Source of the DNA: Anaerolinea sp.
GTDB lineage: Bacteria > Chloroflexota > Anaerolineae > Anaerolineales > Anaerolineaceae
DNA: 55,866 nt
Direction: 5' to 3'
NCBI GenBank assembly: GCA_020725865.1
Contig: DYEC01000025.1
Location: 1-55,866, forward strand
Position numbers and translations under genes: made by a program
The notes under the pieces: model-generated
Databases searched by the model: none
Told to the model about the DNA's origin: nothing
Seen by the model: the letters and a program-made list of their open reading frames with translations, nothing else
Part shown: piece by piece, positions 25,734 through 50,377 of the stretch
Layout of the letters: every line of letters starts with the position of its first letter
Position numbering within the stretch: the first letter of the stretch is position 1

Positions 25734-26645
25734 ATGGGTGATTCTTACAACCTAACGCTTGTAACACGTATCAAAGCGCTTTCAGTTGGCAAAAGGGCAG
25801 CCGAAATAATACCTGTAGCCGAAAAACGCACAGTTATTGGTGTCACCTCACAAGGGGTTTTTCTTCTGGCTAATGGCGACGTTTTTTTTATATCCTTCGG
25901 ATCCTACCGCGGACCTCTGACTATCAGCCTTGGTCAGACAATTGAGGAATTTCAGCGGCTCCCAATCGGCGCAGAAGCAAAATTCCAGTCCGGTGAACTC
26001 ATTTTTCCCAACACCAAAACACGAATCCTATGGGATGTGAGTAAAATCTGGAATCCCCCTCCGGCTGCTACATTTATCGCCCCTCCCAAACAGCGCCGGA
26101 CAACTCTTCAAGAACTGGCTGCTGGTGTCTTGCAAAACAAGCAGGGCGAACAGGGTTTTACGCCTTTTTTGGAAATCCTATTGAACGGTAGAGAAGCAGA
26201 ACAACTGTCAGACGAGTTAAAATCCATCTGGCATTACATTCCTACAATTCAAAAAGCTTTGGCTAAAAAAAAGATTGCGGAAATTGTATCCAGCCTTTTG
26301 CCGCTGATGGGATTGGGACGCGGCCTAACACCCTCTGGTGATGACTTAATTGCCGGTATCCTTCTGACACTCAACCGCTACCCCAAACATGTTTGCCCTG
26401 CCCTCCCGCGTCAGGAATTAAATTTAGCCTTGATCCAGAATGCCCGGCAAAAAACCACCCGTCTCAGCACGAATATTATCGAGCAGGCTGCTGGCGGAAT
26501 TGCTGACGAAAGGTTACTCAAAGCCCTGGATTGTATCATGACAGGTAAAAGCACAATTCAAACCAGCGTTTATGAGATCTGTCACCTTGGACACTCTTCC
26601 GGGGTAGATACACTGACAGGTATTGCTATTGCCCTGACCTGTTAA
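25734..26645 (+). CDS. DUF2877 protein, AllH/YlbF-like carbamoyltransferase subunit
   Basis: A 303-residue member of DUF2877. The central GLGRGLTPSGDDLIAG signature and the C-terminal GHSSGVDTLTGIAIAL are characteristic. The E. coli homologue YlbF (AllH) acts with FdrA (AllF) and YlbE (AllG) as oxamate carbamoyltransferase in allantoin breakdown. Here the other two partners lie 1.2 and 3 kb downstream on the same strand, separated by one gene and a terminator. No clear ribosome site precedes the ATG. It is divergent from the MoaD-like gene across 76 bases. Function in this organism is inferred from the co-located partners. Confidence 0.85.
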   Translation: MGDSYNLTLVTRIKALSVGKRAAEIIPVAEKRTVIGVTSQGVFLLANGDVFFISFGSYRGPLTISLGQTIEEFQRLPIGAEAKFQSGELIFPNTKTRILWDVSKIWNPPPAATFIAPPKQRRTTLQELAAGVLQNKQGEQGFTPFLEILLNGREAEQLSDELKSIWHYIPTIQKALAKKKIAEIVSSLLPLMGLGRGLTPSGDDLIAGILLTLNRYPKHVCPALPRQELNLALIQNARQKTTRLSTNIIEQAAGGIADERLLKALDCIMTGKSTIQTSVYEICHLGHSSGVDTLTGIAIALTC

Positions 26646-26650
26646 CTTTT

Positions 26651-26664
26651 ATTACACATGATAA
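26651..26664 (+). promoter_or_regulatory. 14-bp shared regulatory block, copy 1
   Basis: ATTACACATGATAA occurs here and, in exact reverse complement, at 27638-27651 upstream of fdrA. Both copies lie 30 to 60 bases before a similar promoter, so they are probably sites for one regulator. Confidence 0.55.
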
Positions 26665-26721
26665 TTGCCATATTCTGAAGGTTACATTCTTCCCAAGCGC
26701 GTGAAGTTGTCTGATAACTTG

Positions 26722-26751
26722 TTGACATAGCTGACTTTTGGATGCTATACT
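26722..26751 (+). promoter_or_regulatory. promoter of the first GNAT-like gene
   Basis: TTGACA at 26722-26727, an 18-bp spacer and TATACT at 26746-26751, preceded by TGC as an extended -10. Transcription should begin near 26758, giving a leader of about 45 bases before the ATG. Confidence 0.7.
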
Positions 26752-26802
26752 CAAAATATCCTGATTTTTGGCAACATTCTTATCAGAAGAAAGGAATAAC
26801 TT

Positions 26803-27528
26803 ATGAGAATAGAACCCCCAACCCCAGTATCTTTTGAGGAAATTAAGGTTAATGTTCGTGAGATTGAAGCTCTACTGCAAGCCCCCCCCATGAAATTGCC
26901 ACCTTGGCCCGAAGCCCAGATCACGCTTAAAGATGGACGCGTCCTGTATATTCGCTCCCTCCAAGAAAGCGACATTCCTCTAATGCTTGGCTATCTAGAA
27001 AAGGTCATGAAAGTCGAGAAGGACTTTTATGATATTGTTGGCGTCCGTGTGTATGGAGAAATCCTTGCTATGGTGCGCAAACGCATCAAAGACCCCTTCG
27101 CGATGGTCGGTTTAGTTGAAGGTGAGGTCGTTGGTTTTGCCAATGGACGGGTCTGGAACAAAGACATTGCAATCAGCTTGCATACCATGGCTTTCTCCCG
27201 CCGGGCGCGCGTCGGTTGGCCGATGTACTACGCGAAAACCTACTATGCGCTTGAAATCCTTGGCTGTAAAGAATGGTGGTCAACCTTTGAAAGCTACAGC
27301 GGCTGGCGTATGGCAGGATTGGAAATGGCTCAACCCACCAAGCCCTGGCCTGAATATCAGCATGAACTGGGCGGCGCCCGCGTTTACTACCTTACTAAAG
27401 AAATGTGGGATGCGGGTGTCAAAGATTACTGTAAGCAGATGATCGGAGAAGACCTGAACTTCAACGTCTCCGACGAGATCCGCAAAGCCAACGCAGTCTT
27501 CCGAGTCCCTGAGACGGTTGAACTCTAA
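26803..27528 (+). CDS. GNAT-like protein of unknown function, copy 1
   Basis: A 241-residue soluble protein without membrane segments. The middle (about 45-185) resembles a GNAT acyltransferase fold: a DGRVLYIRSLQESDIPLML opening strand/helix, a MVGLVEGEVVGFANGR strand pair and a following YYAKTYYALEILG helix. I see no clear acetyl-CoA pyrophosphate loop (Q/R-x-x-G-x-G/A), so catalytic activity is unproven. A gapless paralogue, more than half identical, is at 49594-50319. The first 40 residues are Pro-rich. AAAGGAA precedes the ATG. It has its own promoter and terminator. Confidence 0.65.
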   Translation: MRIEPPTPVSFEEIKVNVREIEALLQAPPMKLPPWPEAQITLKDGRVLYIRSLQESDIPLMLGYLEKVMKVEKDFYDIVGVRVYGEILAMVRKRIKDPFAMVGLVEGEVVGFANGRVWNKDIAISLHTMAFSRRARVGWPMYYAKTYYALEILGCKEWWSTFESYSGWRMAGLEMAQPTKPWPEYQHELGGARVYYLTKEMWDAGVKDYCKQMIGEDLNFNVSDEIRKANAVFRVPETVEL

Positions 27529-27709: not shown

Positions 27710-27864
27710 GGAAAATGTCCCTGGACTGATGACGGTAGCTGATATATCCATGAAGTTGACCTCAACAATACGCAATTTTATACATCATCTTTTCACATCC
27801 CATGTCTTTCCAGACAGATTTTCTGGGATGCGCTAATTCTCTTAAAAACTCAGGAGTAAAACCC

Positions 27865-29595
27865 ATGACAGTTATTCAAACACAAATCAGGAGCGGCGTA
27901 TACTATGACTCAGCCAAACTGATGCAGTTGCAGCGTCAGTTATCCGATCTTCCCGGTATCCAGGATGCAGGCGTGGTAATGGGCACCGAGTCGAACAAAG
28001 AACTTCTCTCACACATCGGTCTTGTATCACCTGAGATGCAAAGTGCCAAACCTGATGACCTGGTGATTATCGTAAAAGCAGATGACGAAAAAGCTGCCGA
28101 AACAGCTCTTAGCAGAGTAGACGAATTGCTGGCAGCGCGCAAATCCACTCTCGATCAAGAATACCTGCCGCACAGCATTGAAGCAGCCGCCCAGATGCTT
28201 CCCGGAGCAAGCTGGGTTTTGGTCTCTGTCGCTGGGCGTTATGCTGCCGGTGTTGCGCGCGACGCGCTACGGTTGGGCAAACATGTATTCCTCTTCAGCG
28301 ACAACGTATCGGTAGAAGACGAAATTGACCTAAAGCAAAAGGCTCGCGAACTGGGCTTGCTGGTCATGGGACCAGATTGCGGCACAGCCATGATCGGCGG
28401 CGCAGGGCTTGGCTTTGCAAACAAAATTCGCCGTGGACCGATTGGTGTGGTCGCTGCAGCCGGCACTGGTTTGCAACAGGTAACCAGTCGAATTCACCAA
28501 TTGGGCAGCGGTATTACGCACGGCATTGGCACAGGCGGCCGCGATCTTTCCGAAAAAGTTGGTGCTATCACCTTTTTGATGGGTCTTGATGTGTTTGTGA
28601 GAGACCCTGACACCAAAGTGATTGTCCTCGTTTCCAAACCTCCTGCCCCTAAAGTTGCTGAAGAAGTGATCAAGGTTGCCCGCAAAGCCGGCAAGCCGGT
28701 AGTAATCAGTTTCGTCGGCCGTGCAGTGACCACCCGGCAGGATGGCAATCTTTATTTCGCTACAGGAATGGACGATGCCGCCAGTCTGGCTGTGGAACTG
28801 GCAAATCACCCGCCCAAACTGGAAACCGACAATGAGCTTAACCTGAATCGGTTCGCAGCGGGACAAAAGTTCTTCCGCGGGCTATTCTCCGGCGGTACGC
28901 TGGCTTATGAAGCACAGCACATTCTTGCCGACTATGTCCCCAAAGTGTGGGCAAATGCTCCAATCAATAAAGAGAATAAACTCCCGAACTCCATGGTCAG
29001 CCAGGAACACTGCATTGTTGATTTGGGCGAAGATGAGTTTACGGTTGGACGCCTGCACCCAATGATGGATAACGAATTACGTATCCGCCGCCTAATGGAA
29101 GAGGCTAACGACCCTACAGTGGCTGTGATCATGCTCGATGTAGTAATCGGTTACGGTTCGCACCCCGACCCAGCCAGCGAGTTGGCTCCAGCAATTGCCG
29201 AAGCGATTGCCAATGCCAGGAAAGCCGGCCGCCACCTGGAGGTTGTCTGTGTGGTCACTGGCACGGATGAAGATCCGCAGAACTTTGACTCCCAGATTAG
29301 ACAACTAAAACAAGCTGGCGCCTTCGTAGATGCCAGTAACGAAGTGGTTGTCCGCCGAGCAGGTCGCATCCTGCGGGCACTGGCAGAAAGTGGTAGCGAA
29401 ACCGGTATTACGGGAACACCAGTGAATCTGGATACCCTCAAGAAACCGCTGGAAGCCATCAATGTTGGATTAGAGTCTTTTGCCGAAAATCTTAAAGCCC
29501 AAGGTGTTCCAACAGTACATGTAGATTGGAAGCCTGTGGCAGGAGGCAACGAAAAACTCGCTTCCATTCTGGAGAGAATGAAAAAACAATCCTGA
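27865..29595 (+). CDS. fdrA: FdrA family protein (AllF-like carbamoyltransferase subunit)
   Basis: A 576-residue protein related to succinyl-CoA synthetase alpha chains, close to the 555 residues of E. coli FdrA. The N-terminal 120 residues are FdrA-specific (GIQDAGVVMGTESNKELL). A CoA-binding-like Rossmann domain follows (VLVSVAGRYAAGVAR, VMGPDCGTAMIGG), then a ligase-like domain containing GVVAAAGTGLQQV and GIGTGGRDLSEKVG. In E. coli, FdrA with YlbE and YlbF transfers a carbamoyl group from oxalurate to phosphate. The frame is open to 27802, but ATG 27865 has AGGAG eight bases before it. First gene of an operon with the DUF1116 and tandem cyclase genes. Confidence 0.9.
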   Translation: MTVIQTQIRSGVYYDSAKLMQLQRQLSDLPGIQDAGVVMGTESNKELLSHIGLVSPEMQSAKPDDLVIIVKADDEKAAETALSRVDELLAARKSTLDQEYLPHSIEAAAQMLPGASWVLVSVAGRYAAGVARDALRLGKHVFLFSDNVSVEDEIDLKQKARELGLLVMGPDCGTAMIGGAGLGFANKIRRGPIGVVAAAGTGLQQVTSRIHQLGSGITHGIGTGGRDLSEKVGAITFLMGLDVFVRDPDTKVIVLVSKPPAPKVAEEVIKVARKAGKPVVISFVGRAVTTRQDGNLYFATGMDDAASLAVELANHPPKLETDNELNLNRFAAGQKFFRGLFSGGTLAYEAQHILADYVPKVWANAPINKENKLPNSMVSQEHCIVDLGEDEFTVGRLHPMMDNELRIRRLMEEANDPTVAVIMLDVVIGYGSHPDPASELAPAIAEAIANARKAGRHLEVVCVVTGTDEDPQNFDSQIRQLKQAGAFVDASNEVVVRRAGRILRALAESGSETGITGTPVNLDTLKKPLEAINVGLESFAENLKAQGVPTVHVDWKPVAGGNEKLASILERMKKQS

Positions 29596-29633: not shown

Positions 29634-30878
29634 ATGGTTGATATAGAAAAAGCAAACCAATATGTTTGTGAACAATTTATGGAAGCCCGTCCTGTAGTGG
29701 TCAGCATGGGCAAAGCCATCGAAGTTGTTCCGGGTATGCACGAGAACATGCTACTACACGCCGGGCCTCCGGTAACCTGGGAACGAATGGCAGGACCAAT
29801 GCGCGGCGCGATGATTGGCGCTTTGCTCTTCGAGCGCAAAGCCAAAACCCCTGAAGAGGCTGAAGCTATGCTGAAATCGGGCAAGTTTGAATTTGCCCCC
29901 TGTCACGACCACATGTGCACTGGTCCAATGGCAGGCGTAATTTCCCCTTCCATGCTTTGCTATATTGTTGAAAACAAAACACACAATATCAAATGCTATT
30001 CCAACCTGAACGAAGGGCGTGGTAAAGTATTGCGCATGGGAGCTTACAGTCAGGATGTGCTGGACAAGCTGTACTGGATGGAAAGTGTGCTGGGTCCAAC
30101 GGTAAAAGCAGCACTGGAAGCCAGCGGCGGCATTGACATTCGCGCCATCCTGTCCAAAGCTTTACATATGGGTGATGATGGTCATAACCGCCTGGACGCC
30201 GCATCTATCCTGTATACAACACAACTCGCCCCCTATATTGCAAAAGTCGCCAAAGATACACAAACTGCTTTTGACGTAATCAAATTCCTCGGTGAGAACG
30301 CCCTTAGCATTCTTAATCCGGTCATGGCTGCCTGCAAGACTATGACCGCCGCCGGCGAAAACGTGGAGGGCAGTACAATCGTGACCATCATGGCACGCAA
30401 TGGCACTGATTTTGGTATCCGCGTCAGTGGTCTGGGTGACCGCTGGTTCACCGCCCCAGCCCCGCACGTCAAGGCGCTATACTTCCCCGGTTTCACTGAA
30501 AAGGATGCCAACCCCGACATTGGCGACAGCACGATCACAGAAACGGCCGGCATCGGCGGCTTTGCTATGGCAACCGCTCCGGCAATTGTCACTTTCATCA
30601 GCGGCACACCCCAGGATGCGATTAAGACCACACTGGATATGTATGAGATCACTTATGCAGAACATAAGTACTTCACCATTCCATTCCTGGATTTCCGCGG
30701 CACACCAACCGGCATTGACATTCGCAAAGTAATTGAAAAACAACTGCCACCACGTGTCAATACCGGCGTGGCACATAAAGATCCCGGCGTCGGTCAGGTT
30801 GGTGCTGGTGTTGTAAGCGCTCCGATGAAAGTCTTTGAAGACGCTCTGGTTGCATTTGCCGAAAAGTACGGCTTCTAA
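29634..30878 (+). CDS. DUF1116 protein (AllG/YlbE-like carbamoyltransferase subunit)
   Basis: A 414-residue DUF1116 protein, nearly the same length as E. coli YlbE (about 419). Typical segments are AGPPVTWERMAGPMRGAMIG, the CHDHMCTGPMAGVISPSM stretch with clustered Cys/His, and RNGTDFGIRVSGLGDRWFTAPA. It is the second component of the FdrA-YlbE-YlbF carbamoyltransferase. GGAGG lies 7 bases before the ATG; it follows fdrA by 38 bases and precedes the tandem cyclase gene by 33. Confidence 0.9.
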   Translation: MVDIEKANQYVCEQFMEARPVVVSMGKAIEVVPGMHENMLLHAGPPVTWERMAGPMRGAMIGALLFERKAKTPEEAEAMLKSGKFEFAPCHDHMCTGPMAGVISPSMLCYIVENKTHNIKCYSNLNEGRGKVLRMGAYSQDVLDKLYWMESVLGPTVKAALEASGGIDIRAILSKALHMGDDGHNRLDAASILYTTQLAPYIAKVAKDTQTAFDVIKFLGENALSILNPVMAACKTMTAAGENVEGSTIVTIMARNGTDFGIRVSGLGDRWFTAPAPHVKALYFPGFTEKDANPDIGDSTITETAGIGGFAMATAPAIVTFISGTPQDAIKTTLDMYEITYAEHKYFTIPFLDFRGTPTGIDIRKVIEKQLPPRVNTGVAHKDPGVGQVGAGVVSAPMKVFEDALVAFAEKYGF

Positions 30879-30911
30879 TTATGTATCTGTTTGCCAGATT
30901 GGAGGAAAATT

Positions 30912-32582
30912 ATGGATAGAGAACAATTTATCAAAATGATGGCTGAAGCAAAGCTGTATGACCTGACACAGGACTGCAGCATCTTTACTCCGCCCTGGCC
31001 AGGCGAAAAAGCTCTGGAAGTTCACTTTTTCAAGCGCGTCACTGGCGCTTACGGAGGCGGGCAGGGCGCTAATGGTCAGATTCTCAACTGGAGCAACACC
31101 GTGGGCACCCACCTGGTGGGTGAGCGCGCCTTCCACTCTGGCGGTCGCGCCATTGCCGATATTCCTCTGACCGACCTCTGCGGTCCCGGCGTTGTGGTAG
31201 ATATCTCGGACATGGTTTCCGACTACAGCGTGTACACGCCGGAAATGATCATGAAGAAAGCCGATGTCCACCCGGGTGACATCCTGATCATCAATACTGG
31301 CTACCATAAATATTCCTGGGATCAACCAGATGTCTACAATGAAGCCGCTCAAGGTGGTGTTGAATCCAAAGAGTTTGGCTTCCTGGTGCGCCATCCGGGT
31401 CCTTCTATGGAATTCTACAAATGGGCTATGGACATGAAGCTAAAAGTGATCGGCGTGGACTGTGGATGTGCCGAGCATCCTATGAATACTCCAATCCGCC
31501 GCATGCACGAGAATCACTTCAAGCTTGCCGAAGAAAAGCTCAAGCAAGAATACGGCAAAAGCTGGGACGAAATGTTCCCGCCGGATGAATACTATCAGCT
31601 CACACATATTGCAATGCCAAAGGCGCATCTGGTGCTTGCTGAGTCCATCGTTGGAGAGATTGACAAGCTTAAAAACAAGCGTGCCTGGATTGCCATCATG
31701 CCCATCCCGTTTATGGAAGTTGAAACCGCCTGGGCGCGCGTTTGCGCTTATACCGCTCCAGACTGGATGAGCGATGATGAATTCTTCAAGGCAATGTCTG
31801 AATCCGAGATGATTGACATGACCGTCCCCTTTAGCTGCCAGACACCGCAATGGCTGAATTACGTTCCGCTCAGCATCACTTACAACAAGCGGGTTGGTGG
31901 TCAGTTCTTCGGCATGGGACGCAACGGCTCGATTTGCAATGCCAGCATCCACCTTGCCACGCACATGGATGGTGAGAAACACTTCTACCCCAATGGCCGC
32001 ACCATCGGACAGGTCCCGCTCTCTGAATGGGTCGGACCCGGCGTCATTGCCGACATTTCCCATTTGGTCAGCGACTCGAGCGTCTATACGCCAAAGATGA
32101 TTCACGACGTGGTGGATATCCGCAAGGGTGATATTCTGGTCATCAAGACCGGCTGGAACAGATTCGGCTGGTACACCGAAGACTCGGATGAATTCCGCTA
32201 CATGGTTAAACATCCTGGGCCATCCCCAGACTTCTCCAAGTGGGCTGCGGACATGGATTTGAAATGGATCGGCGTGGATTGCGTGAGCGCGGACCATCCT
32301 ATGAACACCATCATGCGCATTTGGCACCCCAAGACCTTTGCTGAAGCTAATGCTAAACTGATCCGCGACTTTGGCAAAGATTGGGATGAGATGTACCCTC
32401 TGGATAAATACTATCAAGACATGCACCTCAATCTGTTCTCCAAGCAGATCGTCCACGCGGAGAACCTGGGCGGTGACATTGCCACAGCCAAGAGCGGTCG
32501 TTACTACATCGGTTGCTACCTCCAGAAAGCTATGGAGGCTGAATCCATGTGGGGTCGCTTTGTGGCTTTTAAAGAAAAATAA
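30912..32582 (+). CDS. tandem cyclase-family hydrolase with one degenerate half
   Basis: A 556-residue fusion of two PF04199 (kynurenine formamidase/cyclase-like) domains, about 1-285 and 295-556, where the family norm is a single domain of 210-290 residues. The second half keeps the metal and catalytic residues His347, His351, Asp353 and His357 (HLATHMDGEKHF). In the first half the equivalent positions are Thr63, His67, Val69 and Ala73, so it should not bind metal normally. Both halves retain the later DHPMNT or EHPMNT His and the Glu near the domain end. These enzymes hydrolyse amide, lactam or lactone bonds. A TTG at 30891 is in frame, but GGAGG supports ATG 30912. Confidence 0.88.
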   Translation: MDREQFIKMMAEAKLYDLTQDCSIFTPPWPGEKALEVHFFKRVTGAYGGGQGANGQILNWSNTVGTHLVGERAFHSGGRAIADIPLTDLCGPGVVVDISDMVSDYSVYTPEMIMKKADVHPGDILIINTGYHKYSWDQPDVYNEAAQGGVESKEFGFLVRHPGPSMEFYKWAMDMKLKVIGVDCGCAEHPMNTPIRRMHENHFKLAEEKLKQEYGKSWDEMFPPDEYYQLTHIAMPKAHLVLAESIVGEIDKLKNKRAWIAIMPIPFMEVETAWARVCAYTAPDWMSDDEFFKAMSESEMIDMTVPFSCQTPQWLNYVPLSITYNKRVGGQFFGMGRNGSICNASIHLATHMDGEKHFYPNGRTIGQVPLSEWVGPGVIADISHLVSDSSVYTPKMIHDVVDIRKGDILVIKTGWNRFGWYTEDSDEFRYMVKHPGPSPDFSKWAADMDLKWIGVDCVSADHPMNTIMRIWHPKTFAEANAKLIRDFGKDWDEMYPLDKYYQDMHLNLFSKQIVHAENLGGDIATAKSGRYYIGCYLQKAMEAESMWGRFVAFKEK

Positions 32583-32749: not shown

Positions 32750-33631
32750 ATGAAACCAGTAAACTTTGACTACTATGCTCCGACCAGTGTGGACGAAGCG
32801 CTGGATAACCTTGCGGAGCTGGGATATAACGGCAAAGTTCTTGCAGGCGGACAAAGCCTGATCCCTACGTTAAACTTCCGAATGGCACGTCCAGCAGCTC
32901 TGGTGGACCTGAATAATATTCCAGAGCTGGCATATATCAAGCCCACAAGCGATGGCGGTTTAGCAATCGGTACCATGACGCGCGACAGCAAAGTTGAATA
33001 CAACCCCGAAGTTGCCAAACGCTTCCCCCTCTTGCCGGAAGTCATGAAATTCATTGCCCATCCGCAAATCCGCAACCGTGGTACTTTTGGTGGGGCAATT
33101 GCCCATGCGGATCCTGCTGGGCAACTGCCTGCTGTCTCAGTTGCTATGAACGCAACGATGCGCCTCCGCCGCAAAGGACAGGAGCGCACAGTCACTGCAG
33201 ACGAATTTATCATCGGACCCTTCATGACCGTTCTAGAGCCGGATGAGATGCTGGCTGAGGTGATTCTGCCACCCAACCCGCCTCGCACTGGCAGCAGCTA
33301 CAAGCAGGTCTCCAGACAAAAGGGAGGATACGCGCAGGCAGCCGTCATCTCCGTTGTGACCTTGGATGACCGGAATCGTTGCAAAGATGTGCGCATGGTT
33401 CTGATGAGTGTCGGTGAAAGACCTATTCTCTCCCAAAAAGCGCGCGAAATTCTTATGGGTCAAGAAGCAAGCAATGAAGCATTCCGCGCTGTGGCTGAAG
33501 CAGCTGCAACACAAGAAGCAGATCCAGCAACTGACCTGCATGCCACAGCCGACTATCGGCGCAGTCTGGTACGAGTACTGGTCGTACGCTCATTGACAGA
33601 GGCTTTTGACCGGGCAAAGCGAGGAGGTTAA
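32750..33631 (+). CDS. Mo hydroxylase 1, FAD-binding medium subunit (CoxM/XdhB-like)
   Basis: A 293-residue FAD subunit of a xanthine dehydrogenase/CO dehydrogenase-family enzyme. The FAD loops AGGQSLIPTLNFRMARP and TFGGAIAHADPAGQLP are intact, and the C-terminal domain ends with the usual YRRSLVRVLVVRSL. It passes electrons from the iron-sulfur subunit to an acceptor. AGGAGG precedes the ATG; the 2Fe-2S subunit gene starts 2 bases after the stop. Order medium-small-large (M-S-L) is as in cox operons. Confidence 0.92.
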   Translation: MKPVNFDYYAPTSVDEALDNLAELGYNGKVLAGGQSLIPTLNFRMARPAALVDLNNIPELAYIKPTSDGGLAIGTMTRDSKVEYNPEVAKRFPLLPEVMKFIAHPQIRNRGTFGGAIAHADPAGQLPAVSVAMNATMRLRRKGQERTVTADEFIIGPFMTVLEPDEMLAEVILPPNPPRTGSSYKQVSRQKGGYAQAAVISVVTLDDRNRCKDVRMVLMSVGERPILSQKAREILMGQEASNEAFRAVAEAAATQEADPATDLHATADYRRSLVRVLVVRSLTEAFDRAKRGG

Positions 33632-34119: not shown

Positions 34120-34136
34120 AAATGCGAGGTGATACT

Positions 34137-42475: not shown

Positions 42476-44827
42476 ATGACAACTGCATCTATAAAAGAAA
42501 CAACGAATATCGGCGTATCCAAACCGCGTGTGGATGTGCGGGAAAAGGTCACTGGAGCTGCGATCTTTACCGACGATATCCAGTTCGGTGCCGGTTTGCT
42601 ATACGCACGTGTCAAGCGAAGCCCCTACCCACATGCCATCATCAAACGCATTGACACCAGCAAAGCGAAGGCGCTTCCGGGTGTTAAGGTTGTAGTAACC
42701 GGTGAAGATTTTCCACATCGAACTGGGCTTTACCTGAAAGACCGCTATATCTTTGCCCGTGATCGTGTCCGCTTTGTCGGTGAGCCAGTCGCCGGTGTAG
42801 CGGCCATTTCAGAAGAAATCGCTCAAAAAGCAACTGACCTGATCGAGGTAGAATATGAGGTATTACCGGGTGTTCATGATCCGGTTTATGGCGCCTCACC
42901 AGAAGCCCCGCTGCTTCACCCTGATCTGGGGAACTACGAAGTACCGAATTTTATCTTCCCCGTTCCCAATACCAACATCTCGAATCACTTCAAAGTGCGC
43001 AAGGGCGATGTGGATGCTGCCTGGTCACAATGTGCAGCGATTGTTGAGCACACTTTCCGCGTGCCGCATGTCCAGCATGTTCCTATTGAACCGCATGTTG
43101 CCATCGCCCAGGTGGATGGCGAAGGAAATATTACACTCTGGGCATCCTCGCAATCACCCTTCGCCCAGCGAAATCTGATTGCGAAATCGTTAAACATGCC
43201 CGAAAGTAAAATCCGCGTGATAGCGCCTCTAATCGGCGGCGGGTTTGGCAGTAAAGCTGGTATTACGATGGAAGCAATCCCGGTAGCAATTGCTATGAAA
43301 GCCAAAGGACACCCGGTAAAATTCCGCCTGACCCGTGAGGAAGAGTTCTTCACCAACTTTGTCCGCCAGGGATTGGTCGCCAAAATCAAAGTCGGCTGTG
43401 ATAAAGATGGCCGCTTGCTGGCAATCCAGAATGAAATGTACTGGGATGGCGGTGGTTATACCGATTACGGTGTTAACATCACCCGCGCAGGTGGATATAG
43501 TGGTTCAGGACCTTTTGACTGCCCCAATGTCAAGGTGGACAGCATGTGCGTTTATACCAATCATCCGGTCGGCGGTGCCTATCGCGGTTTCGGCATGTCC
43601 GAGGTACATACCGGCATCGTTCAGGCAATGCACATGTTATCGGAAAAAATTGGTATGGATTTCGCCGAATTTCTCAAACTCAACGTGGTACAAGAGGGCG
43701 ACAAAATCCTGACCGGCATGACCATGCACAAGACGGGTATCAAAGAGTGCATTGACAAAGTAACTCAGGCAGTCAATTGGGGCATCAAGGAACCGCCCAG
43801 CGCGCCAAACAAGCGGCGTGGCAAAGGACTTGCGGTCATGTGGAAAGCACCCGCCATGCCGCCCAATGCCGGCTCAAGCGCTCTGGTAAAACTAAATGAA
43901 GACGCCTCGGTTACTGTCCTAATCGGCGGTCAAGAAATTGGCCAGGGCAGTTTTACGGCAATGGCACAAATTGCCGCTGAAAGCTTGGGCGTGCCATTTG
44001 AGTCGGTCAAAGTTAAAGGCCCCATTGACACCCAATATAGCCCCTATGAATGGCAAACGGTTGCCAGCCGCCTGACCTGGAGCATGGGTAATGCCGTCCG
44101 CAATGCCGCACTCGATGCGCGTAAGAAGATCATTGACATGGTTGCCGAAGCTTGGGGAGAAAAGCCAGAAGATCTGGACATTAAGGATGGCTATGTGATT
44201 TCTTACAAGACGGAAGAGTCTATCTCCCTCAAGGATATTGTAGTTTATGGCATCCCTAAACCGGATTATAGCGGCTGGGTGGGCGGTCCAATTGTCGGTA
44301 GTGGCAACTTCATGCCAACTTATGTGACCGGGCTGGACAAAGAAACTGGTCAGGGCGAGCGGGCTGTCGTGCATTACACGACCGGCGCTCAGGCAGTTGA
44401 TCTGGAAGTTGATCTGGACACAGGACAAATTACGATCCTGAAAGCCGCTTCAGCGTTTGACGTTGGCAAAGCAATCAACCCCGATCTGGTCAAGAGCCAG
44501 ATTGAGGGTGGTTTTGTTCAAGGCATGAGTTCTGCTATCTTTGAGGAAATGAAGCTGGTCAACGGCGTCATGCAGAACCCAAGCTTTGTGGACTATCGTA
44601 TTGCTACTACTGCCGACATTCCCAAAGTTATTGAAGCCTACATCGTTGAAGCGCCACAGGATGACGGTCCATGGGGAGCTCGCGGAGTTGGTGAGCATCC
44701 TATGGTGCCCACCATTGCCTGTCTGGCAAATGCCATCTACGATGCAACAGGTGTGCGCGTCAGCAATCCACCTCTAAGTGCGGAGAAAATCTATCTGGCT
44801 TTGCTGGATGCAGGTGTAGTCAAGTAA
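42476..44827 (+). CDS. Mo hydroxylase 2, molybdenum-binding large subunit
   Basis: A 783-residue Mo-binding subunit. The Mo pocket loop PLIGGGFGSK, the GGAYRGFGMSEVH segment and the catalytic Glu740 in GVGEHP are present. The GAYRGFG form resembles xanthine dehydrogenase, nicotinate or hydroxybenzoyl-CoA type enzymes more than CoxL, so its substrate probably differs from that of enzyme 1. Start ATG 42476 is set by AGGAGG; the frame is open further upstream but overlaps the small subunit. No CoxG follows this set. Confidence 0.93.
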   Translation: MTTASIKETTNIGVSKPRVDVREKVTGAAIFTDDIQFGAGLLYARVKRSPYPHAIIKRIDTSKAKALPGVKVVVTGEDFPHRTGLYLKDRYIFARDRVRFVGEPVAGVAAISEEIAQKATDLIEVEYEVLPGVHDPVYGASPEAPLLHPDLGNYEVPNFIFPVPNTNISNHFKVRKGDVDAAWSQCAAIVEHTFRVPHVQHVPIEPHVAIAQVDGEGNITLWASSQSPFAQRNLIAKSLNMPESKIRVIAPLIGGGFGSKAGITMEAIPVAIAMKAKGHPVKFRLTREEEFFTNFVRQGLVAKIKVGCDKDGRLLAIQNEMYWDGGGYTDYGVNITRAGGYSGSGPFDCPNVKVDSMCVYTNHPVGGAYRGFGMSEVHTGIVQAMHMLSEKIGMDFAEFLKLNVVQEGDKILTGMTMHKTGIKECIDKVTQAVNWGIKEPPSAPNKRRGKGLAVMWKAPAMPPNAGSSALVKLNEDASVTVLIGGQEIGQGSFTAMAQIAAESLGVPFESVKVKGPIDTQYSPYEWQTVASRLTWSMGNAVRNAALDARKKIIDMVAEAWGEKPEDLDIKDGYVISYKTEESISLKDIVVYGIPKPDYSGWVGGPIVGSGNFMPTYVTGLDKETGQGERAVVHYTTGAQAVDLEVDLDTGQITILKAASAFDVGKAINPDLVKSQIEGGFVQGMSSAIFEEMKLVNGVMQNPSFVDYRIATTADIPKVIEAYIVEAPQDDGPWGARGVGEHPMVPTIACLANAIYDATGVRVSNPPLSAEKIYLALLDAGVVK

Positions 44828-45061: not shown

Positions 45062-46639
45062 ATGGATTCCCAAACCAACAACAACCAGGATGAATTACAG
45101 GCAAAGATTCGCCAGCTTCAAGAAATGCGAAAAAAGCTGGCAGAAGGGGGCGGTGAGGAACGTATCAAGGCTCAACATGAAAAAGGCAAACAAACTGCGC
45201 GAGAACGAATTGAAAAACTGGTTGACCCTGGTACGTTTCAGGAAGTCCAGCCCTTTATGCTACATCGCCACACGGATTTTGGCATGGAAAAATCACGTTT
45301 TCTTGGCGATGGGTTGATCGCCGGCTTTGCCAAGATCAACGGACGGCGGGTTTGCCTATACGCACAAGATTTCACGGTTTTGGGCGGCTCTTTTAGTGAA
45401 GTGGCTGGTATCAAGCTGGCAAAGCTGATGGATATGGCGATGCAAGCCGGCGTCCCGGTAATTGGATTAAGCGACGGCGGCGGTGCCCGCATTCAGGAAG
45501 GTGTCTGGAGTCTGTGGGCGTTCGGTGAACTGTTTTACCGCAACACGCTGGCGTCCGGTGTCATCCCGCAAATCAGCGTTGAACTTGGTCCATGTGCGGG
45601 CGGGGCAGTGTACTCGCCTGCCATTACCGACTTCATCATCATGACCAAAAACACCAGCAATATGTTCATCACCGGTCCCGAAGTCATTAAAGCGGTAACA
45701 GGAGAGGAAGTGGATTTTGAAACTTTGGGAGGTGCTGGTACCCATTCCAGTGTGAGCGGTGTGGCGCATTTTGCCGCTGAGAATGAAGATCATGCCCTGG
45801 AGCTCACTCGCACATTGCTCAGCTATCTCCCATCCAATAATCTCGAACAGCCGCCTGTTATCCCCCCTACCGATGACCCCTTCCGCATGGATAAAACACT
45901 GGATGCGATTGTTCCAGTGGATCCGAACGAACCCTATAATATGCACGAAGTCATCGAAAAGATTTTTGATCAAGGATCATTTTTTGAAGTGCATGCTAAT
46001 TTTGCCCGCAATGCGGTCGTCGGTTTTGCTCGACTACACGGGCAATCGGTTGGCGTGGTCGGACAGCAACCCGCTTTCCTGGCAGGAAGCATTGACATTG
46101 ACGCATCTGATAAAATTGCCCGGTTTGTTCGCTTCTGCGATGCGTTCAATCTGCCCATTATCACTTTTTCCGACTCGCCCGGTTTTCTGCCCGGTGTGGC
46201 ACAGGAACATGGCGGCATCATACGCCATGGGGCAAAAATCGTGTTTGCCTATTCGGAAGCAACTGTACCAAAACTGACTGTGATTACCCGCAAAGGTTAT
46301 GGCGGGGCGTATATTGTCATGGGGTCCAAACATCTGCGCGCTGACCTGGTCTTCGCCTGGCCCAACGCCGAAATTGCCGTTATGGGCGCCGAGGGGGCAG
46401 TCAACATTCTGTTCCGTAAAGAGCTGAAAGATGCTGCCGACCCGAAAGCCGAGCGTGCCCGTCTAGTCGCAGAATACCGCGCTAAATTCGCTAACCCCTA
46501 TAATGCTGCGGCTGGCGGACACATTGACGATGTTATCCTGCCCTCAGAAACCCGCCCGCGCCTGATCGCAGCTCTCGAATTGTTGAGAGATAAACAAACG
46601 CGGTTGCCTGCCAAAAAGCATGGCAATATTCCCTTATGA
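45062..46639 (+). CDS. acyl-CoA decarboxylase carboxyltransferase subunit (MmdA/GcdA-like)
   Basis: A 525-residue carboxyltransferase (PF01039) of two crotonase-like halves. Features include EKLVDPGTFQEVQPF, the GARIQEGVWSL segment of the first half, and SDSPGFLPGVAQEHGGIIRHGAK and KGYGGAYIVMGSK of the second. In a Na+-pump operon it would move CO2 from an acyl-CoA (malonyl-, methylmalonyl- or glutaconyl-CoA) to biotin. It is not the oxaloacetate-type subunit. GGAGG lies 14 bases before the ATG. First gene of a six-gene operon. Confidence 0.92.
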   Translation: MDSQTNNNQDELQAKIRQLQEMRKKLAEGGGEERIKAQHEKGKQTARERIEKLVDPGTFQEVQPFMLHRHTDFGMEKSRFLGDGLIAGFAKINGRRVCLYAQDFTVLGGSFSEVAGIKLAKLMDMAMQAGVPVIGLSDGGGARIQEGVWSLWAFGELFYRNTLASGVIPQISVELGPCAGGAVYSPAITDFIIMTKNTSNMFITGPEVIKAVTGEEVDFETLGGAGTHSSVSGVAHFAAENEDHALELTRTLLSYLPSNNLEQPPVIPPTDDPFRMDKTLDAIVPVDPNEPYNMHEVIEKIFDQGSFFEVHANFARNAVVGFARLHGQSVGVVGQQPAFLAGSIDIDASDKIARFVRFCDAFNLPIITFSDSPGFLPGVAQEHGGIIRHGAKIVFAYSEATVPKLTVITRKGYGGAYIVMGSKHLRADLVFAWPNAEIAVMGAEGAVNILFRKELKDAADPKAERARLVAEYRAKFANPYNAAAGGHIDDVILPSETRPRLIAALELLRDKQTRLPAKKHGNIPL

Positions 46640-46657: not shown

Positions 46658-47005
46658 TTGGATGCAAGTCCCATCACGCAAGGTCTCATTATCAGTGTTG
46701 CCGGGTTGATTGTCGCTTTCACTTCAATGGCCTCCTTTATTTTAGTGATCATCCTCCTTCAGAAATTCTTCCCACCAAAAGCAGAAGAAACATCTGAAGC
46801 GTTAGAAGAGGGTGAACAACCCATCATTGCAAAAGCCGAGGATAATGAGGAGGAAGAAGCAATTGTTGCAGCAATCACCATAGCGCTCCATGCCGCTCGC
46901 GCGAAAGCGCAGAGCAAACTGGGAGCAGAGCTGCAAGCAGGGCGCAGCAACTGGTGGGCAGCCAACCTCCTGGCTGCACGTCAGGAAACCGTAATAAAAA
47001 AATGA
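46658..47005 (+). CDS. sodium-pump decarboxylase gamma/delta subunit (OadG/MmdD-like)
   Basis: A 115-residue protein with one N-terminal membrane helix (about 7-32), a KFFPPK basic border, an acidic cytoplasmic stretch and an Ala-rich helical C-terminus including WWAANLLAA. OadG-like subunits hold the complex together and end near the carboxyltransferase. The TTG start is supported by AAAGGAGG six bases before it; no in-frame ATG fits. Confidence 0.85.
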   Translation: MDASPITQGLIISVAGLIVAFTSMASFILVIILLQKFFPPKAEETSEALEEGEQPIIAKAEDNEEEEAIVAAITIALHAARAKAQSKLGAELQAGRSNWWAANLLAARQETVIKK

Positions 47006-47023: not shown

Positions 47024-47476
47024 ATGAAGCAAAGTATCATTGTCAACGGAAAAACGTATGAAATTGAATTTAGCGACATCATGACTTCACCTATTGAGGT
47101 CATCGTTAACGGTAAGCGATATAGCGTTACTATTGAAGGTGAAACCTCTGTTCCACCCGCAGCAGTTAAAACCTCCTCCACCGCGTCCGCACCCGTTGCA
47201 ACGCCAACCGCAGTGCCAGCAAAAGCAGTAAAACCAGCTGCAACTGCAGCAGTGACCAGCTCAGCCGACGAGATCCGCGCTCCTATGCCTGGTGTCATCC
47301 TGGATGTAATGGTGAAGGCTGGCGATCAGGTGGCCGTTGGGCAGGTTCTCTGCACCCTTGAAGCTATGAAGATGAAAAATGCTATTCGCTCCCCCAGAGA
47401 AGGAACAATCTCGAGCGTGGAAGTATCCGATGGGCAAAAAGTTGCCTACGGTGATATTCTGGTTCGCTTTGCGTGA
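47024..47476 (+). CDS. biotin carrier subunit
   Basis: A 150-residue biotin carboxyl carrier protein. The last 70 residues form a biotinyl domain with EAMKM and biotinylated Lys116. An Ala/Pro-rich linker (about 43-80) provides the mobile tether, and the N-terminal 40 residues are a small beta region. It shuttles CO2 from the carboxyltransferase to the OadB-like pump. AGAGG precedes the ATG. Confidence 0.94.
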   Translation: MKQSIIVNGKTYEIEFSDIMTSPIEVIVNGKRYSVTIEGETSVPPAAVKTSSTASAPVATPTAVPAKAVKPAATAAVTSSADEIRAPMPGVILDVMVKAGDQVAVGQVLCTLEAMKMKNAIRSPREGTISSVEVSDGQKVAYGDILVRFA

Positions 47477-47485: not shown

Positions 47486-48610
47486 ATGGACCTATCACGA
47501 ATGCTTGTTCTTCTAGAAGCCTTTCGCGAGCTATCTTGGCAGAACGTTGTCATGATGATCGTCGGTGGTATTCTGATCTACTTGGCGATCGCGAAAGACT
47601 ATGAACCTTTGCTTTTATTGCCAATTGGCTTTGGCGCAATCCTGACCAATCTCCCATTGACCGGCATCACGAATGAAGACGGGTTCTTAGGCATTTTGTA
47701 TAACTTCGGCATCGCTACCGAACTTTTCCCGCTGTTTGTCTTTATTGGCGTTGGTGCCATGACAGATTTTGGTCCGCTATTGGAAAACCCCAAGATGGCA
47801 CTGCTTGGCGCGGCCGGGCAGTTCGGGATTTTCAGCACACTGATGTTGGCGCTTTTTCTTGGCTTTAATATCAATGAGTCCGCTTCCATCGGTATCATTG
47901 GAGCCATTGATGGACCTACAGCGATTTACGTCTCTTCCAAACTGGCCCCGCATCTGCTCGGCCCAATCGCTGTTTGTGCCTACAGTTATATGTCCTTGGT
48001 GCCAATCATCCAACCGCCAGTCATGCGCCTCCTAACAACCGATGCTGAGCGCAAGGTTCGCATGCCGTACACACAAAAAGAAGTCACCAAAACCGTCCGT
48101 ATCCTGTTCCCCATTGTCGTTACCATTGTTGTTTCTTTAATTTCTCCAAAAGCATCTCCTCTCATTGCAGCGTTAATGTTTGGAAACCTGATTCGAGAAT
48201 CGGGCGCAGTCGAACGTCTAAACCAGGCAGCACAAAACGAACTTTCCAACCTGACTGCCTTGTTCCTGGGCATTGTCATTGGTTCCACCATGAATGGAGA
48301 AAAGTTCCTTCAGCTTCAAACGCTGGCTATTCTGGGAATGGGGTTACTGGCTTTCGTTTTTGACACTATTGGTGGTGTGTTGTTCGGAAAGCTGATGTAT
48401 GTGCTTTCTGGCAAAAAATTTAACCCCCTCATTGGTGCAGCCGGCATTTCAGCTTTTCCCATGTCAGCCCGCATTGTCCAGCGTTTTGGTCAACAGTATG
48501 ACTTTGAAAACTTCTTGCTGATGCATGCGATGGGCGCCAATGCCGCAGGTCAGCTTGGAAGTGTTGTCGCCGGTGGTGTAGTGCTGGCAATTGTTGCTGG
48601 AATACTATAA
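47486..48610 (+). CDS. Na+-translocating decarboxylase beta subunit (OadB/MmdB-like)
   Basis: A 374-residue integral membrane protein with about nine segments. The AMTDFGPLLENPKMALLGAAGQ loop and GIIGAIDGPTAIYVSSKLAP with the essential Asp142 are diagnostic of the Na+ pump that decarboxylates carboxybiotin. It therefore conserves energy as a sodium gradient. The gene starts 9 bases after the biotin carrier gene. Confidence 0.94.
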   Translation: MDLSRMLVLLEAFRELSWQNVVMMIVGGILIYLAIAKDYEPLLLLPIGFGAILTNLPLTGITNEDGFLGILYNFGIATELFPLFVFIGVGAMTDFGPLLENPKMALLGAAGQFGIFSTLMLALFLGFNINESASIGIIGAIDGPTAIYVSSKLAPHLLGPIAVCAYSYMSLVPIIQPPVMRLLTTDAERKVRMPYTQKEVTKTVRILFPIVVTIVVSLISPKASPLIAALMFGNLIRESGAVERLNQAAQNELSNLTALFLGIVIGSTMNGEKFLQLQTLAILGMGLLAFVFDTIGGVLFGKLMYVLSGKKFNPLIGAAGISAFPMSARIVQRFGQQYDFENFLLMHAMGANAAGQLGSVVAGGVVLAIVAGIL

Positions 48611-48678
48611 AATACTTCTCAGATGTTCCATGTTCAAATATCTGCTCACTTATAAACCATTTCAAGAAAGGAGTAACC

Positions 48679-49560
48679 ATGAAACTAATTGATTTGACCA
48701 TTCCTCTGGGTATCGCTACCCCTCCCTGGCCTACATATGAGCCGCTACAAGTGAAATATTTCAAGCGGCTGGCTCCAAACGGCGCAAATGGTCAGCTTCT
48801 GACCCATTCAAACCATCTGGGGACTCATCTGGATGGCGAAATTCACTTTTACACTCCTGGCAAGGACATCGCTTCTCTGTCCATGGATTTCCTCGTACAC
48901 GAAGCCGCTGTGGTTGATCTGAGCGATGCCTGCGGTGATTACGACGTGTACACCAGCAAAATGATCGAGGAGCGTGTTGAGGTCAAAGAAGGCGATATCC
49001 TTGTGATTCATACCGGTTATCACCACTTCGGCTGGGATATGCCGACTGCCGACGAAGTTCGCTATATGGTCTGCCACCCGGGACCGGACCGCGAGTTTAT
49101 CGAGTGGTCCAAGAAGAAAAAACTGCGCTGGATCGCGGTGGATTGTGGAAGTGCTGACCATCCAATGAATACCATTATCCGTAACTGGATGCCCCGCCAG
49201 GCAAAACTGGCTGACAAAGTCTTCCGCAAGAAATTCGGCAAACCAATGGAAGAAGTCTTTGACGACTCCAAATACCAGCAAATGCACATTGACATGTTTC
49301 CCGACGGCATCATCCATGCCGAATGCTTTGGCGGTGAAATTGACTTGCTTCTGAACCGGCGCGTAACAGTTGGCTTCTTCCCCTGGCGCTTTGTAGACGG
49401 CGAATCCAGCATCGGGCGCGCTGTCGCCTTCGTAGATGACGACGAGTACGAAAAGCTCATGGAAAAGAAAGCCAAAATGCCGAAGACTCGCTTTGGCGAT
49501 GCCTACGATCCCGTCCATGTAGAACGCATTAATAAGCTGACCGCTGCCAACCTGGCATAA
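48679..49560 (+). CDS. single-domain cyclase-family hydrolase
   Basis: A 293-residue PF04199 hydrolase paralogous to the tandem protein at 30912. The metal motif is intact: His46, His50, Asp52, His56 (HLGTHLDGEIHF), with the later ADHPMNT His and HAECFGGEID Glu. It should hydrolyse a cyclic or linear amide (kynurenine formamidase, isatin hydrolase and lactamase are characterised relatives). GAAAGGAG precedes the ATG. Its place in the decarboxylase operon links ring or amide hydrolysis with decarboxylation. Confidence 0.9.
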   Translation: MKLIDLTIPLGIATPPWPTYEPLQVKYFKRLAPNGANGQLLTHSNHLGTHLDGEIHFYTPGKDIASLSMDFLVHEAAVVDLSDACGDYDVYTSKMIEERVEVKEGDILVIHTGYHHFGWDMPTADEVRYMVCHPGPDREFIEWSKKKKLRWIAVDCGSADHPMNTIIRNWMPRQAKLADKVFRKKFGKPMEEVFDDSKYQQMHIDMFPDGIIHAECFGGEIDLLLNRRVTVGFFPWRFVDGESSIGRAVAFVDDDEYEKLMEKKAKMPKTRFGDAYDPVHVERINKLTAANLA

Positions 49561-49593
49561 ACTATATTCAGTTAGTAAAGAAGGAGTACAGAA

Positions 49594-50319
49594 ATGCGAC
49601 TAGACCCCCCTGAGAAAGTATCTGAAGAGCAATTGACTTTTCACGTAAGTGAAATTGAGCCTTTGCTTCAAGCACCCTCTATGGATTTGAAACCCTGGCC
49701 CGGTGCGATTGTCAAGCTCAAAGATGGGCGTACCCTCTACATCCGCGAGGCAAAGATGGAAGAAGCCCCAATGATGTTAGGGTACATGAAGAAAGTTATG
49801 GAAGTTGATCATGACTTCTATGACATCGTTGGTGCTCGCGTCTATGCAGAAATTCTGGGCTGGTACCGCAAACGCCTCAAAGACCCCTACACCCTCGTTG
49901 GGTTGATTGATGGTTTATGGGCTGGCTTTGCCAATGGCCGTCTATTGAATGAAGATATCAATATCAGCCTGCACACAATGGCACTGGTACGCGGTGGTCG
50001 CATAGGAGCAGTAATGTACTACGCTAAAGCGTACTATGGTTTTGAAATCCTGGGGAACAAAGAGTGGTGGGCAACCTACGAAAGCTACAACGGTTGGATG
50101 CGTTGGGGGCTGGGCATGGCACAACCTTCTTACCCCTGGCCAGATTATCAACACGAACTGGGTGGTGCACGGGTATACTACATCACCAAGAAATACTGGG
50201 ATAAGGTTGTCAAGGACTACATCCGCCAGATGGCTGGCGCAGATCTCGATTTCAATGTTCCCGATGAAGTTGTCAAAGCAAATGAAGTAATGCGCATTCC
50301 TGAAGAGGTCATGGTCTAA
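49594..50319 (+). CDS. GNAT-like protein of unknown function, copy 2
   Basis: A 241-residue gapless paralogue of the protein at 26803. Shared blocks include the EIEPLLQAPSM start, HDFYDIVGARVYAEIL, ISLHTMAL and PWPDYQHELGGARVYYITK. The fold looks GNAT-like but a clear CoA loop is missing. Last gene of the decarboxylase operon, just after the cyclase. GAAGGAG precedes the ATG. Confidence 0.65.
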   Translation: MRLDPPEKVSEEQLTFHVSEIEPLLQAPSMDLKPWPGAIVKLKDGRTLYIREAKMEEAPMMLGYMKKVMEVDHDFYDIVGARVYAEILGWYRKRLKDPYTLVGLIDGLWAGFANGRLLNEDINISLHTMALVRGGRIGAVMYYAKAYYGFEILGNKEWWATYESYNGWMRWGLGMAQPSYPWPDYQHELGGARVYYITKKYWDKVVKDYIRQMAGADLDFNVPDEVVKANEVMRIPEEVMV

Positions 50320-50338
50320 CCTGACGCCTAAATTTCCC

Positions 50339-50377
50339 AAAACTCGGAAGCCTGCAGGCTTCCGAGTTTTTATTTTC
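50339..50377 (+). terminator. terminator after the decarboxylase operon
   Basis: A perfect 16-bp palindrome (50339-50354 with 50355-50370; working loop of about 4 bases), running into a T-rich tail. The following bases to 50543 hold a TATAAT box (50425-50430) with an overlapping small inverted repeat ATTGT-TCTC-ACAAT just upstream, a candidate promoter and operator for the next gene. Confidence 0.93.

Follow-up and report, generated by a model that had tools for sequence, protein, structure and literature searches.

A conserved gene cluster of Anaerolinea sp. and its proposed role in energy-conserving pyrimidine degradation via barbiturate

Genes of the cluster

The DNA analysed here (the window) is contig DYEC01000025.1 of an Anaerolinea sp. 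genome of 3.12 Mb, taken as the entire contig (C23) at its full length of 55,866 nucleotides. Between positions 25734 and 50319 it carries 22 genes on the + strand, and these genes, a candidate pathway for the anaerobic breakdown of pyrimidine bases, are the subject of this report. Gene families were called with Pfam and NCBIfam profiles against their cut-offs, and motifs were read directly in the translations. A sequence-only reading of the same DNA had listed DUF2877, FdrA and DUF1116 genes, two cyclase-family hydrolases, two Mo hydroxylases, CoxG, an NCS2 permease and a four-subunit Na+ pump. Every one of them is recovered on the + strand by profile match and, as that reading had also said, neither a carbamate kinase nor a coenzyme A (CoA)-transferase is found within the window. 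It had overlooked two paralogues of 241 residues, here called U241-A and U241-B, whose nearest relatives are in Anaerolineaceae, and the degenerate first half of a tandem cyclase.

The cluster opens with an AllH-like (DUF2877) carbamoyltransferase subunit (25734..26645; PF11392 81.7 bits, cut-off 25; 29% identity to E. coli AllH over 194 aa). Module A, as we call it, consists of U241-A, AllF, AllG, the tandem cyclase, Mo hydroxylase A and CoxG. U241-A (26803..27528) is 62% identical to U241-B and has no Pfam match passing a cut-off; its GNAT fold is predicted from a model of its paralogue. It is followed by AllF/FdrA, the acyl-CoA-synthetase-like carbamoyltransferase subunit (27802..29595; NF004760 583.7 bits, cut-off 433; 39% identity to E. 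coli FdrA), and by the AllG/DUF1116 subunit (29634..30878; PF06545 304.9 bits, cut-off 27; 46% identity to E. coli AllG). All three carbamoyltransferase subunits thus lie above their cut-offs within 5.1 kb, and a genome-wide search for AllG returned the window gene as its single match. The tandem cyclase-family hydrolase (30891..32582) matches PF04199 in two stretches and has its metal motif in the second half, not the first. Mo hydroxylase A is encoded by a FAD subunit (32750..33631; PF00941, PF03450), a subunit with two [2Fe-2S] clusters (33634..34119; PF00111, PF01799 and the cysteine pattern) and a large subunit resembling CO dehydrogenase and quinoline oxidoreductase (34122..36488; PF02738, PF20256; best PDB matches 8uem and 1t3q). 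A CoxG-like protein (36555..37193; PF06240, 92.1 bits) completes the module. Next come the NCS2 nucleobase permease (37465..38895; PF00860, 179 bits) and an NmrA-like protein (39036..39893; PF05368), a homologue of which lies upstream of Mo hydroxylase B in another locus (L054; loci are numbered with L throughout).

Module B comprises a second Mo hydroxylase, the Na+-pump decarboxylase, a single cyclase and U241-B. Mo hydroxylase B has the same three parts: a FAD subunit (41006..41959; PF00941, PF03450), a two-[2Fe-2S] subunit (41979..42461; PF00111, PF01799 and the cysteine pattern) and a large subunit (42476..44827; PF02738, PF20256), the open reading frame of which begins at 42395, with the likely ATG at 42476. 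Both Fe-S cysteine sets are intact in each hydroxylase and GVGE is present in both Mo subunits. All parts of the decarboxylase are encoded together (45062-48610): an MmdA-like carboxyltransferase (45062..46639; TIGR01117 789 bits, below the cut-off of 998.8), a small OadG-like gamma/delta membrane subunit (46658..47005; PF04277 34.2 bits, cut-off 27), a biotin carrier with its AMKM motif (47024..47476; PF00364) and the OadB/MmdB membrane Na+-pump subunit (47486..48610; PF03977, 522.3 bits). The cyclase-family hydrolase (48679..49560; PF04199), our proposed ring opener, and U241-B (49594..50319), a predicted GNAT-fold protein, close the cluster.

Conserved neighbourhoods and a clue to the substrate

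A contig scan gave 87 U241 places, the best 80 of which were used with up to 10 kb on each side; together with L146 they form a set of 81 U241 loci, compared here with 19 AllG loci that have no U241 (AllG neighbourhoods were examined in 20 of the 71 Chloroflexota genomes that have the gene). The U241 loci carry AllF in 43 cases, AllG in 40, a cyclase in 59, a barbiturase-family gene in 4, a Mo hydroxylase in 34, MmdA in 16 (two of these being cross-hits) and MmdB in 12. In the AllG loci without U241 the counts are 19 for AllF, 19 for AllG (the selection criterion), 11 for cyclase, 12 for Mo hydroxylase and 0 for Mmd. The cross-hits, in L033 and L084, came from an AccDA-like protein, and their removal took the count from 17 of 86 to 15, all among the 81. 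Thus MmdA or MmdB occurs in 15 of 81 U241 loci, from four phyla, versus none of the 19 without U241.

Genomes of other classes and phyla hold a one-copy version of the set: Mo-NCS2-AllF-AllG-Cyc-U241 in Thermotogaceae (L072), U241-AllH-AllF-AllG-Cyc-Mo-NCS2 in Caldisericales (L069) and AllF-AllG-Cyc-U241-NCS2-Mo in Thermoflexales and Thermoflexia (L056, L059), while L146 likewise has one copy each of Mo hydroxylase, cyclase, AllF/AllG and U241. Archaea are represented by a member of the Pyrodictiaceae (L088, AllG-AllF-Mo-AllH-U241) and by one of the Thermoproteota (L089), which has CoxG, U241, AllF, AllH, a Mo hydroxylase and a Bmp-type transporter; between its U241 and AllF lie a carbamate kinase over the cut-off and a CoA-transferase A/B-like pair below the NCBIfam cut-offs. 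In L047 and L050 the order Mmd-AllF-AllG-Cyc-U241 is contiguous, with no Mo hydroxylase within the fetched stretches. Cytosine-deaminase-like genes, below their model's cut-off, occur in 5 of the 81 loci; like the kinase and CoA-transferase genes of L089, they speak for pyrimidine breakdown. Chloroflexota clusters without U241 (L131, L133, L135, L137, L140, L144, L145, L147) combine a Mo hydroxylase, a cyclase and AllF/AllG, some with a carbamate kinase, an amidase or a class III CoA-transferase; possibly they are an acylurea route to another product.

Could the window simply be a row of operons that have nothing to do with one another and share no pathway? Its sub-operons are separated by gaps of 140-273 bases, and Bellilinea caldifistulae has its two U241 loci on different contigs, both of which would suit such a view. 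Yet of the 48 U241 loci that span 14 kb or more, five of them later additions, 45 carry AllF/AllG, a cyclase or barbiturase, or a Mo hydroxylase, and the two U241 genes lie 22.7 kb apart in genome G216, as against 22.8 kb in the window. U241 is also rare, being found in 7 of 400 Chloroflexota genomes, and all seven have AllG, which is present in only 71 of the 400; without the window's own genome the figures are 6/6 versus 70/399 (P 2.4e-5, ignoring kinship). A mere juxtaposition of operons, already disfavoured, is therefore barely credible. The neighbourhood is real and conserved, not a product of chance: as the sequence-only reading would have it, the same genes recur together among the U241 loci, in several bacterial phyla, Anaerolineae included, and in archaea.

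What, then, might be the substrate? The best clue comes from a class in which the ring opener is a barbiturase. We examined 178 genomes of the class of L031, labelled Acidimicrobiia and centred on L031's own genome. The barbiturase family (PF09663) is present in 6 and AllG in 8. In 6/6 of the PF09663 genomes AllG shares contig and strand with the barbiturase-family gene, at a distance of 3.3-3.9 kb (without the centre genome, 5/5, with AllG in 7/177; P 1.5e-8, ignoring kinship). In nine loci (L031, L032, L033, L084 and L199-L203) a single strand carries a barbiturase-family gene together with AllF, AllG, AllH, a Mo hydroxylase and U241. The first four, Acidimicrobiaceae by label, have, in this order, U241, an AccDA-like carboxyltransferase, an AtzD/barbiturase-family hydrolase, AllH, AllF, AllG and a Mo large subunit; L199-L203 have barbiturase (detected by tblastn in L199), AllH, AllF, AllG, Mo hydroxylase and a divergent U241 (35-39% identical), in an order that is rotated in L203. 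A thiolase adjoins U241 in L199, L201 and L203, an NCS2 permease is present in L199, and PucR in L199 and L202.

The L031 hydrolase is identical to the solved barbiturase 5hwe at 268 of 367 residues (73.0%) and scores 582.9 bits against it, compared with 312.8 against the best cyanuric acid hydrolase; for the L201 enzyme the scores are 525.8 and 326.4 bits. The L031 enzyme also passes the NCBIfam cyanuric acid hydrolase model (466.6 bits, cut-off 360), so that its barbiturase specificity rests on its closeness to 5hwe. PMC4051656 describes barbiturase as inactive on cyanuric acid and assigns a glutamine to the barbiturase subgroup.

Within the stretches fetched, the nine barbiturase loci are all without a cyclase, and a barbiturase is absent from every cyclase locus. 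In the tree of U241 proteins, the neighbours of L031 and L033 are L034 (Chloroflexota) and L044 (labelled Bacillota), both of which have a cyclase as partner. That one type of U241 goes with either ring opener argues that cyclase and barbiturase share the same job. The sequence-only reading had proposed barbiturate and ureidomalonate from chemical considerations, and the nine loci lend this idea substance, with the restriction that only Mo hydroxylase B groups with them.

The cyclase model lends further support. The module-B cyclase has the metal motif, and its model (pLDDT 80.4) is nearest to isatin hydrolase (Z 18.6; matches within 1 Z unit count as ties), an enzyme that opens a cyclic amide. 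The metal motif H-x-x-T-H-x-D-x(3)-H is complete in 43 of 44 single cyclase reading frames, the sole exception (L015) being truncated by the end of its locus. Of 18 tandem cyclases, 16 keep the full motif in their second half, and all 18 have it replaced in the first. All 18 first halves, including that of the window copy (30891-32582), share a fixed degenerate motif, [TSN]xGTHLVGxxx[FY], as if this half kept a non-catalytic role.

Two modules and the U241 family

The sequence-only reading had drawn the genes that it listed into one route. The layout, though, is not a single line: two parallel modules lie in the window, and a Mo hydroxylase, a cyclase and a U241 belong to each. Mmd adjoins AllF-AllG-Cyc-U241 in L047 and L050. 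We infer that the two ring-cleavage modules converge on one AllFGH and one Na+-pump decarboxylase. A linear route that uses both Mo hydroxylases in turn was set aside because one-copy versions exist (L056, L059, L069, L072, L146). Among the best 80 of 87 places, 18 assemblies have U241 beside AllF in the order of module A, and 10 of these have a second U241 locus, with a cyclase in 10/10, AllH in 8/10 (L034, L036, L039, L042, L045, L046, L049, L054) and both Mo hydroxylase and Mmd in 4/10 (L034, L039, L049, L054).

The two Mo hydroxylases fall into two deep clades and are not recent duplicates. The clade of Mo hydroxylase B (support 100/99) takes in every one of the nine Mo subunits linked to a barbiturase, as well as subunits from archaea, Thermotogota and Caldisericota; Mo hydroxylase A groups with the ten full-length Mo subunits of U241-less loci (100/100). 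The large subunit of Mo hydroxylase A reaches the curated cut-off of none of the 14 NCBIfam models listed. CO dehydrogenase was considered for it and rejected on its sub-threshold score and the lack of AYxCSFR, the active-site loop of aerobic CO dehydrogenase; on direct reading this motif is absent from both Mo large subunits. The 34 rows that make up the clade of the window AllG (95/81) come from U241 or Mo-plus-cyclase loci, with E. coli lying outside it, and the barbiturase-linked AllG proteins form a clade of their own (97/99).

Module B probably acts on a barbiturate, and for module A the chance of the same is a little short of even. Uracil and thymine, an obvious pair, may be the substrates of the two modules. 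The separation of the two Mo clades would also suit a division of labour in which module B handles barbiturates and module A another acylurea, such as oxalurate from a five-membered ring like parabanate, and only lends its AllF and AllG. In the complete U241-less loci (n=11), nine Mo subunits fall in clade A, the other two being too short for the tree, and an amidase (5/11) or class III CoA-transferase (3/11) in such loci would suit a path from oxamate through oxalate to oxalyl-CoA; the reference list of PMC3364942 holds a title on induction of oxamate transcarbamylase by parabanic acid. However, module A carries U241, just as module B and the barbiturase operons do, and the one AllG of this genome must serve both modules, so we regard this division as improbable. 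For module B no reading explains the data better than barbiturate chemistry, which is also plausible for module A.

What does U241 do? The family has no usable Pfam or NCBIfam match, no GNAT family is listed for it in Pfam up to E = 10, and its profile has no match among PDB chains up to E = 1. A model of U241-B built from an alignment of 45 members (pLDDT 91.9) nevertheless adopts a GNAT acyltransferase fold (best Foldseek E 1.1e-6) and superposes on PA3270 (1yre, with CoA) with a Z of 14.9 over 170 residues at 11% identity. Twenty-five residues are invariant among 53 members, including S125, H127, R133, G138, E163, S164, H187 and E188. R133 and G138 lie in the loop that joins strand 122-130 of the model to helix 137-152, where GNATs bind the phosphates of CoA, which is a hint, though no more, of CoA-dependent acyl transfer. 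The U241-A clade is nested inside the family tree, which fits a duplication inside Anaerolineae.

U241 is accompanied by acyl-CoA enzymes (Mmd, AccDA-like, thiolase), and in complete loci it goes with fewer amidases (2/30 with U241 versus 5/11 without, P 0.0096) and class III CoA-transferases (0/30 versus 3/11, P 0.015), the loci being related and not independent. A CoA-dependent step from malonamate to malonyl-CoA would explain both observations. The replacement idea is weakened by L022 and L026, which have both U241 and a distant amidase, and that U241 makes malonyl-CoA from the amide is a guess that we hold only tentatively. GNAT-fold decarboxylases exist, and we also considered U241 as a malonyl-CoA decarboxylase; this is disfavoured by the presence of Mmd in the same stretch as U241 in L047, L050, L074 and L077. 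Another thought is that U241 is no pathway enzyme at all and instead a regulatory protein acetyltransferase, for example of AllF, given its likeness to acyl-CoA synthetases. There are known cases of protein acetyltransferases next to such synthetases, the GNAT fold is predicted and AllF has a CoA-ligase domain. Yet U241 occurs with a cyclase or Mmd and with no AllF in the fetched stretch in L028, L029, L034, L039, L052 and L053, and it is present at every barbiturase locus found, which makes a regulator of this kind unlikely.

The proposed route and its place among known systems

We consider it likely that the cluster as a whole serves an anaerobic, energy-conserving form of oxidative pyrimidine degradation via barbiturate; every reaction and substrate of this route we infer from gene content, conservation, linkage, fold predictions and tree placement. 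The NCS2 permease would import the base and a Mo hydroxylase would oxidise uracil or thymine to barbiturate or methylbarbiturate. A cyclase-family metallohydrolase would then open the ring to ureidomalonate, a step that barbiturase would perform in the class of L031. Ureidomalonate is the product of barbiturase and, like oxalurate, an acylurea, with one CH2 more. AllFGH would phosphorolyse it to carbamoyl phosphate and malonamate, much as the E. coli enzyme is described as forming oxamate and carbamoyl phosphate from oxalurate and phosphate (PMC11326118). ATP would then come from carbamate kinase, the gene for which lies outside the window. The amide would become malonyl-CoA or methylmalonyl-CoA, probably through the GNAT-fold U241 or through an amidase and a CoA-transferase, and the biotin decarboxylase would couple decarboxylation of this thioester to a Na+ gradient. 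A malonyl-type product would explain the decarboxylase, which oxalate would not.

The two enzymes missing from the window, a genome-wide search for which the sequence-only reading had suggested, are both encoded elsewhere: contig C17 has one carbamate kinase over the cut-off (386 bits, cut-off 358.25), and C11 has a CoA-transferase pair with 41% and 46% identity to that of archaeal L089. Carbamate kinase is present in 18/18 of the U241-cluster genomes examined (14 over the cut-off) versus 65/201 Chloroflexota (52 over the cut-off). This enrichment is weak evidence, because 16 of 17 genomes of the window's own order have the kinase with or without U241 and because the kinase gene of the window's genome is part of a purine-like locus. 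There, on C17 (L097, L214), it is accompanied by genes for an 8-oxoguanine deaminase (698 bits, cut-off 532), OTC-like and ATC-like transcarbamylases and a Bmp-type ABC transporter and by YqeA-like and YgeW-like genes. At distances of 9 and 16 kb are XdhA-like and HyuA-like genes; neither YgeX nor YgeY has a match in the fetched stretches.

A purine route must be weighed at this point: the Mo hydroxylases would act on hypoxanthine or xanthine and AllFGH on oxalurate from allantoin, and the Na+ pump would be an unrelated neighbour. NCS2 carriers and PucR regulators, found with these genes, also serve purines, and allantoinase is over its cut-off in 3 of 26 cluster genomes (L069, L074, L088). 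Oxalurate is the substrate with which E. coli AllFGH works (PMC11326118), and a 2025 paper reads the allFGHK clusters of nitrifiers as oxalurate degradation (PMC12625717). But a barbiturase-family gene beside AllFGH would not be expected on a purine route, yet it is seen in all six PF09663 genomes of L031's class; allantoinase falls below the cut-off in the other 23 of the 26 genomes and in the window's own (TIGR03178 best 322.8 bits, cut-off 357.85); and oxamate yields no malonyl-CoA, yet Mmd is linked. In addition, the separate purine-like locus leaves the window cluster free for another base. We therefore judge a purine route quite improbable.

Several observations nonetheless weigh against pyrimidine degradation via barbiturate. 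Some have been met above: the purine associations of NCS2, PucR and allantoinase, the position of the own carbamate kinase in the purine-like locus and not in the cluster, the near-general presence of that kinase in the order, the L031 enzyme's match to the cyanuric acid hydrolase model, the failure of MmdA to pass TIGR01117, and the placement of Mo hydroxylase A in a deep clade without barbiturase links. To these must be added that carbamate kinase lies in the fetched stretch of only 1 of 81 U241 loci versus 8 of 19 U241-less AllG loci, and that the window AllG is of the module-A lineage, not that of module-B clusters with their own AllG. The window's genome has no PF09663 match, while 18 of 400 Chloroflexota match in the same search, and of these 18 only 5 also have AllG, never on the same contig. 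Weaker points are that allantoinase lies within 5 kb of carbamate kinase in the genomes of L069 and L074, that 2 of the 8 AllG genomes of L031's class have no PF09663, that 6 of the 10 second U241 loci have no Mo hydroxylase or Mmd within the fetched stretch, and that L028 carries Mmd though its U241 falls within the module-A clade.

Other genes adjoin the cluster. Divergent from it, on the - strand, are EutA, EutB and EutC ethanolamine ammonia-lyase genes and a protein with two BMC shell stretches (20758-25273), and immediately upstream a small ThiS/MoaD-like protein (25373-25657, - strand), possibly with a role in the Mo cofactor. An MR_MLE enolase-superfamily gene (50544-51608) directly follows the cluster. 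It was considered as a part of the pathway and set aside, since none of the 80 loci gave its query a best hit at 1e-8.

If pyrimidine degradation via barbiturate is indeed the task of the cluster, AllFGH-type carbamoyltransferases would gain a second substrate class, an unnamed protein family spread over several phyla would be explained, and we would see how anaerobes could live on the nucleobases of dead biomass with gain of both ATP and a Na+ gradient. Part of the idea could be tested in a named strain, Bellilinea caldifistulae GOMI-1, in which L018 holds U241-AllF-AllG-cyclase of module A and L046 holds AllH-cyclase-U241, a part of module B. A bolder extension, doubtful as it stands, would make this a third general pyrimidine route in bacteria and archaea, in which phosphorolysis of ureidomalonate is followed by a GNAT-fold enzyme that turns malonamate and CoA into malonyl-CoA and NH3 without ATP, so that both halves of barbiturate yield energy. 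Among the matches listed in a search of the open-licence literature there is no account of AllFGH in pyrimidine degradation or of ureidomalonate phosphorolysis.

How does the cluster compare with known systems? With AllFGH and AllK of the E. coli allantoin pathway it has all three carbamoyltransferase subunits in common, and the proposed phosphorolysis of an acylurea to carbamoyl phosphate would be alike. The window proteins are 39, 46 and 29% identical to AllF, AllG and AllH, with AllG in a clade that excludes E. coli, and their partners are a Mo hydroxylase, a ring hydrolase and a decarboxylase, with no kinase in the window. The PF04199 enzymes isatin hydrolase and kynurenine formamidase share metal motif and fold with the window cyclases, which differ in their identity of about 20% and, in module A, in the tandem arrangement with its degenerate first half. 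GNAT N-acyltransferases such as PA3270 have the fold predicted for U241, which differs in its low identity and in the lack of a Pfam GNAT match.

The methylmalonyl-CoA decarboxylase Na+ pump (MmdA/B/C/D) has the same four subunits, including OadB and the biotin carrier; the window version differs in its sub-threshold MmdA and its linkage to nucleobase-type genes. Finally, the oxidative pyrimidine pathway runs through uracil/thymine dehydrogenase, barbiturase and ureidomalonase. The proposed intermediates, barbiturate and ureidomalonate, would be the same, and the L031 enzyme is 73% identical to a solved barbiturase. In the window, however, a cyclase-family hydrolase would take the place of barbiturase, phosphorolysis by AllFGH would replace the hydrolysis by ureidomalonase, and the carbon would exit via CoA esters and a Na+ pump.

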